Shown here in pieces: positions 20,438 through 21,184 of a stretch of DNA of 35,102 nt. Position 1 is the stretch's first letter, and each line of letters begins with the position of its first letter. Under the pieces are notes generated by a model. The model was not told where the DNA came from. It made no database searches and saw only the letters and a list, made by a program, of their open reading frames with translations. The DNA is from an uncultured Oscillochloris sp. (GTDB lineage: Bacteria > Chloroflexota > Chloroflexia > Chloroflexales > Chloroflexaceae): contig CAIWXH010000648.1 in assembly GCA_903916565.1 (NCBI GenBank), positions 1 to 35,102 on the forward strand, read 5' to 3'. Both the position numbers and the translations under genes were made by a program.

Positions 20438-20465
20438 TTGAGCGAACAAGTTTTTGTACTATAAT
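20438..20465 (+). promoter_or_regulatory. Sigma70-like promoter immediately upstream of the structured RNA region
   Basis: TTGAGC (20438-20443) - 16 nt - TATAAT (20460-20465). Confidence 0.6.
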
Positions 20466-20474
20466 ACAAGCATA

Positions 20475-20900
20475 AAGTATCCGACCGGGTCAGTAACCCA
20501 CGGCGAACGCTCGTGGGCTTGAATTTCGGTTCAAGCTGGTGCTGACCAGTCTCAGCCACCAATCTTCGGGTTGACGGGGCTACGCGAGCGGCAAGCGTTC
20601 ACGACCTACCGGCGGGTGCGTTGCCAGCCTGCCGCGCTAGAACCTGGGCATCAACCAACGGTGGGGTACGCCGTGCATGTACTCTTGGGATAGTACCGAC
20701 CGCTCGCTTTAACGAGGCGAACGTACCCCGCAAGGGGAGTCCTTACGGGCAAACAGGTCTGACGGTCTTCCTGGGCTTTGCGGTCAAAAAGACCGTCACC
20801 AATCCGCCAAGCCCGTGTCACTAGGCGTTGAAGCGGGCTGAGGCTTGGCGGTTCTCCCAGTGCTGAAGCGGCTGGGTTTCCGCGCCTAAAGGCAAGCATT
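20475..20900 (+). ncRNA. Large structured RNA candidate; HEARO/OMEGA (IscB omega-RNA)-like hypothesis
   Basis: No convincing ORF; dense pairing: CCCACG/CGTGGG (20497/20512), CTTGAA-tttcgg-TTCAAG (20518-20535), GGTGCTGA/TCAGCcACC (20538-20560), CAATC-UUCG-GGTTG (20560-20573), GGGGTACG/CGTACCCC (20663/20722), GACGGTCTT/AAGACCGTC (20761/20789), CCGCCAAGCC/GGCTTGGCGG (20804/20842), CCCAG/CTGGG (20856/20872). Confidence 0.55.
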
Positions 20901-20902
20901 CT

Positions 20903-21184
20903 ATGCATATCAGCGATCCGAACAAGCCCAACTACGACTACCTGACTCGCTACGTGTGCGGGATCGAGCTTGATTTCGGTGTGCTGGAGTTCAAGGATCA
21001 CGGGATCTACCCGGATGTGCTTCGCGAGATCGGCTTCACCGATGTGGCGTTCGCCGAGCAGTACGACCACGTACTCTACCACAGGCGGTTAAGGTCTAGC
21101 GGCGGACGAGGCGGCAGGTACGAGTGGTTCGTGGCCGTGAACCTTACGTGCCGTGTTAGCATGGTCGGTGGCTATTTTGGGTAA
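20903..21184 (+). pseudogene. Truncated fragment resembling the C-terminus of a SAM-dependent methyltransferase
   Basis: HISDPNKPNYDYLTRYVCGIELDFGVLEFKDHGIYPDVLREIGFTDVAFAEQYDHVLYHRRLR resembles a methyltransferase C-terminal half; no SAM-binding N-terminus upstream, only the non-coding region. Confidence 0.4.

Follow-up and report, generated by a model that had tools for sequence, protein, structure and literature searches.

An ORF-less HEARO/omega-RNA mobile element at the bchU locus of an uncultured Oscillochloris sp.

A 414-bp segment of the window, the 35,102-nucleotide stretch of DNA analysed here, is an ORF-less mobile element built around a HEARO/omega-RNA. It is known in kind, and its layout is lineage-specific. 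It is very probably a non-autonomous, MITE-like element of the ISC type (IscB-associated IS200/IS605) which carries a guide RNA only and is probably an orphan in its present genome. The following features were recognized at the locus.

20438-20465, + strand: host bchU promoter, TTGAGC-16-TATAAT, overlapping the palindrome TTGTACTATAATACAA (promoter scan and comparison with congeners)
20473-20488, + strand: predicted guide, 16 nt of host flank, TAAAGTATCCGACCGG (from the promoter position and the HEARO start)
20489-20902, + strand: whole ORF-less mobile element (span common to the three other copies in the genome, which have unrelated flanks, and ten-copy alignment)
20489-20726, + strand: HEARO/omega-RNA core (RF02033 match and covariation)
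20497-20517, + strand: left-end hairpin CCCACGGC..GCTCGTGGG (kept in all copies; 88% identity with iscB elements over the first 33 bp)
20727-20840, + strand: 3' extension of the RNA with the conserved hairpin GACGGTCTT...AAGACCGTC (covarying alignment columns 287-323 and 300-311)
20841-20902, + strand: right end, hairpin CCCAG..CTGGG followed by GCCTAAAGGC (common to the iscB element of another genus; the hairpin covaries)
20903-21184, + strand: bchU remnant, a 93-aa ORF whose first ~60 codons are the BchU C-terminus (TIGR02716 255-305, E 1e-18)

Identification and extent of the element

Positions 20489-20726 of the forward strand were matched by Infernal to the Rfam family HEARO (RF02033) with 87.9 bits against a gathering cut-off of 83, over the full length of the model (1-211 of 211). 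This is the sole Rfam family in the 35-kb window, where a search for other families at a low threshold gave chance-level matches only. RF02033 matches 65% of the 5' UTRs of HEARO nucleases (PMC9755519).

The conserved unit exceeds the HEARO match. When 20440-20910 was compared with the genome of the window (G000) by blastn, three further copies were found with 78-85% identity, each covering 20488/20489-20905, and the four HEARO copies of this genome are located at unrelated sites. Flank alignment revealed constant ends, GTCAGTA on the left and GCATTCT (GCACTCT in one copy) followed by ATG on the right. Because the ends are constant across the copies in the genome and the sequence outside them is unrelated, the unit is delimited as 20489-20902. 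The antisense ORF over the element matched no protein family in Pfam or NCBIfam, and tblastn of IscB gave nothing significant in the element; the reading as a decayed protein was rejected on these grounds.

No iscB gene adjoins the element, and the search of G000 for PF14239 (iscB) gave no match, although this assembly is fragmented into 850 contigs and absence is not proof. The same search detected PF14239 in 11 of the 41 genomes of the family, four times in the congener G001 (MAG Oscillochloris Ja1-D5_bin-794), and the iscB genes of the family were found beside other HEAROs. An earlier note, made from the letters alone, had proposed a large structured RNA at 20475-20900 free of any credible ORF, and had suggested by resemblance a stand-alone copy of a HEARO or omega-RNA. 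All of these proposals are upheld, with four ORF-less copies now recognized in the genome.

Structure and covariation of the RNA

An alignment of ten ORF-less copies, drawn from four genomes, gave a consensus of 115 pairs in RNAalifold. In this consensus 96.6% of cells are paired, a value favoured by the derivation of the structure from the same sequences, and changes on both sides of a pair are the better evidence. Such two-sided changes are seen at 21 pairs, against 8.5 +/- 1.8 in shuffled alignments (0 of 500 reach 21) and 1-5 in slid controls, and this covariation across homologous copies confirms the structured RNA. Some of the covarying pairs lie beyond the Rfam model, in the 3' extension (columns 287-323 and 300-311), whose hairpin GACGGTCTT...AAGACCGTC is outside the model, and in the right-end hairpin (388-429). 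The folding energy of the single sequence is weak (z = -1.93).

Eight helices had been read by eye, and the alignment sustains five of them as conserved or covarying: CCCACG/CGTGGG, CTTGAA/TTCAAG, CAATC/GGTTG, GACGGTCTT/AAGACCGTC, and the right-end CCCAG/CTGGG. The other three are unsupported by the other copies; GGTGCTGA/TCAGCCACC conflicts with a helix between columns 1-10 and 53-61 of the alignment, which is better conserved, and neither GGGGTACG/CGTACCCC nor the outer CCGCCAAGCC/GGCTTGGCGG is kept in the other copies.

The bchU locus and its promoter

In G002 (MAG Chloroflexales W4_Combined_metabat2_035), the gene order is hydrolase, intact bchU, and bchK. The window matches this genome up to 20470 and resumes from 20903, and about 0.9 kb of bchU is replaced by the element. 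The remnant, which begins directly after the element, is 45-76% identical to the intact BchU of relatives. The description of the insertion as lying between genes was thus incomplete, as the element stands in for the bchU leader and roughly 254 codons from the start of the BchU profile.

The sequence TTTTTGTACTATAATACAAG constitutes the bchU promoter region in G002 and is also present upstream of the deleted bchU in G001; it is therefore host sequence. A promoter borne by the element was rejected, since this promoter is common to congeners that have no element there. What had been taken for the RNA's own promoter is the conserved host bchU promoter, outside the element. The palindrome TTGTACTATAATACAA (20454-20469) over the -10 box is possibly an operator; it is conserved ahead of bchU at eight or more loci of the Chloroflexaceae.

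Positions 20471-20488 can be aligned gap-free with the leader of G002, but only 10 of these 18 positions are identical, so the left junction probably, though not certainly, lies in the bchU leader. At the internal bchU site, G002 has ATGA (ATGAACATC) and the window has ATGC. As a candidate for the empty site, G002 has an intact bchU, but the window has additionally lost ~0.9 kb there. Insertion at the internal ATG may have been followed by loss on the left side, or insertion in the leader by loss on the right side.

A second BchU was not found in G000, where the search gave only two weak matches of methyltransferase type. Since only the 3' end of bchU is left and a further copy was not detected, BChl d may be produced in this organism in place of BChl c. 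The neighbouring bchK is also lost (21101-21184); its start ATGG is joined to its last internal ATGG (MVGGYFG), an ATG-to-ATG deletion, and the bchK paralogs left in G000 are only 29-64% identical. G001 lost bchU separately (L108, G001:C1185:400-4400); the breakpoints fall in a GCCTAG repeat, and the site contains no element.

The guide prediction assumes a transcription start some seven bases past TATAAT, in which case the RNA would carry 16 nt of host sequence ahead of the HEARO. This 5' flank differs in every copy. For the predicted guide of the window copy, no second target with up to 3 mismatches plus NTG was found in G000. For IsrB, both a guide segment and a TAM, NTGA or NTG, have been demonstrated (PMC9581776).

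Insertion sites and start codons

Related right ends were found at 75 loci, of which four had no nearby NTG and were left out. The bases after the remaining 71 are ATGA (58), GTGA (11), ATGC (1), and ATGG (1); NTG was sought within eight bases and is partly built into these counts, which does not apply to the A at the fourth base or to the lack of TTG. The 69 ends followed by ATGA or GTGA agree with the TAM of IsrB (PMC9581776). The right junction in the window itself is ATGC, not NTGA.

At 42 of the 71 ends an ORF of 80 codons or more starts, as compared with 29% of the NTGA sites across these stretches (binomial p 1.3e-7, which is optimistic as the 71 ends are kin to one another). Profile alignment indicated true starts for rho (residue 1 to profile position 1), hemE (5 to 2), an AraG-like ATPase (4 to 4), and pnp (13 to 2). 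Right ends of the family are located directly upstream of the start codons of transketolase, rho, hemE, and pnp (L010, L226, L044, and L118).

AAGG is observed 5-13 nt upstream of NTG in 70 of the 71 related ends, a conservation that is partly by construction, as AAGG belongs to the conserved end used to collect the loci. In the window, AAAGG lies ~10 nt upstream of the right junction. It is hypothesized that AAGG acts as a ribosome-binding site and that insertion at start codons could be a strategy of these elements.

Related elements and transposases

ORF-less copies of the window type were found in G000, G001, G047, and G049, and the last three genomes also carry iscB, beside other HEAROs. 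Besides G000, three genomes of two genera share the ORF-less layout together with the 3' extension, and this lineage and its extension are well supported. A 1,612-bp iscB element from another genus (G040:C1) is 88% identical to the ORF-less elements over the left 33 bp and 87.5% over the right 80 bp. Because its ends match those of this 1.6-kb iscB element, the window element is regarded as a MITE-like derivative.

G001 also contains micro-elements of 53-75 bp with the same ends, in which one left hairpin is fused to the right end (L113:1037-1091, L114, and L116). Right-half remnants were observed in G013 and G052, and right-half copies without a left end, with the extension hairpin kept, in genus g12 (L127 and L128).

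The three Y1 proteins of G000 resemble the REP-associated family more than IS200, and a canonical IS200 transposase was not found in this genome, where Y1 proteins of the REP-associated type were the only ones detected. The Y1 loci of related genomes gave just weak similarity at the left end and were rejected as the source of a transposase with the same ends. A matching Y1 transposase may have been lost, or may be supplied by another element.

Proposed explanation and alternatives

The element consists of a left end, a HEARO/omega-RNA with its structured 3' extension, and a right end, with nothing else between them. Comparison of the copies places insertion immediately 5' of NTGA. Mobilisation would be by a Y1 transposase acting in trans. 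Transcription would start from a promoter in the host flank, here that of bchU, and produce an omega-RNA with host flank as its 5' guide. Together with IscB supplied in trans, this RNA may direct cleavage of a site that the element has left or that lacks it (flank plus NTGA), and such cutting would lead to retention or spread of the element. The most likely function, as judged from sequence, is that of a trans-acting guide RNA for IscB, orphaned in G000; other ORF-less copies may likewise use IscB in trans. The window copy is probably an orphan because neither iscB nor a canonical IS200 transposase was found in the genome, and its function in the present cell is doubtful because no IscB was found there.

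The weak folding energy, taken alone, might point to a different large ncRNA family or to chance folding. This reading was already refuted by the full-length HEARO match, the covariation, and the conserved ends, and its probability is negligible. Far more serious, and only somewhat short of an even chance, is the view that the segment is a dead relic, an omega-RNA copy neither usefully transcribed nor used by IscB and kept as near-harmless. Consistent with this are the absence of a detected iscB in the genome, the HEARO score of 87.9 bits, which is the lowest of the four copies, the target site ATGC, and the broken bchU next to it. It is opposed by the conserved promoter just upstream and by the recurrence of the ORF-less layout and 3' extension in three other genomes of two genera with compensatory changes, which indicate that the lineage was under selection as RNA. 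The relic view is compatible with the MITE-like guide-RNA element as far as the past is concerned, and differs from it on present use only.

Alternatively, the host might have co-opted the RNA to regulate the adjoining gene or to serve as its leader, as the conserved palindromic promoter above the element, the related ends at start codons, and AAGG near ATG could suggest. The gene behind the element is a truncated bchU remnant, however, and the insertion sites differ between genomes, which makes this alternative quite improbable. An extended form of the MITE-like reading is offered more tentatively and is rather unlikely to hold in full: guide-RNA-only transposons would land between the leader and the start codon of a gene, supply AAGG as a new ribosome-binding site, be transcribed from the promoter of that gene and thereby acquire its leader as guide, and parasitise IscB in trans. 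Its directly observed parts are insertion 5' of NTGA, enrichment at gene starts, the spacing of AAGG, and covariation.

These observations show omega-RNAs spreading without the nuclease, as small mobile elements in their own right, and their conserved 3' extension is absent from the existing HEARO model. Start-codon sites and the supplied AAGG may be the reason why such insertions are tolerated. The bchU case links an omega-RNA element to the loss of a chlorosome-pigment gene, and the IscB proteins of the sister genomes make the use of IscB in trans by ORF-less copies directly testable.

Comparison with known systems

The window element shares with the HEARO (RF02033) omega-RNA of IscB the full-length model match; host flank lies at the position of a 5' guide, and NTG follows the insertion on the 3' side, here as ATGC rather than NTGA. 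It differs in that iscB neither adjoins it nor was found in its genome, and in that the ORF is replaced by an extension of ~175 nt that includes a covarying hairpin and the right end of the transposon. The iscB element G040:C1 has the same left end (88% over 33 bp) and right end (87.5% over 80 bp), but encodes IscB between them.

Non-autonomous IS200/IS605 derivatives of the MITE type keep the two terminal hairpins and have no transposase. The window element resembles them in both respects and in its several copies, which include the versions of 53-75 bp, whereas it retains a complete guide RNA. Stand-alone omega-RNAs were reportedly described along with IscB by Altae-Tran and colleagues in 2021. 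Those are likewise HEARO copies without an adjacent nuclease gene, while the elements described here form a defined lineage in Chloroflexales, with fixed ends and a 3' extension.
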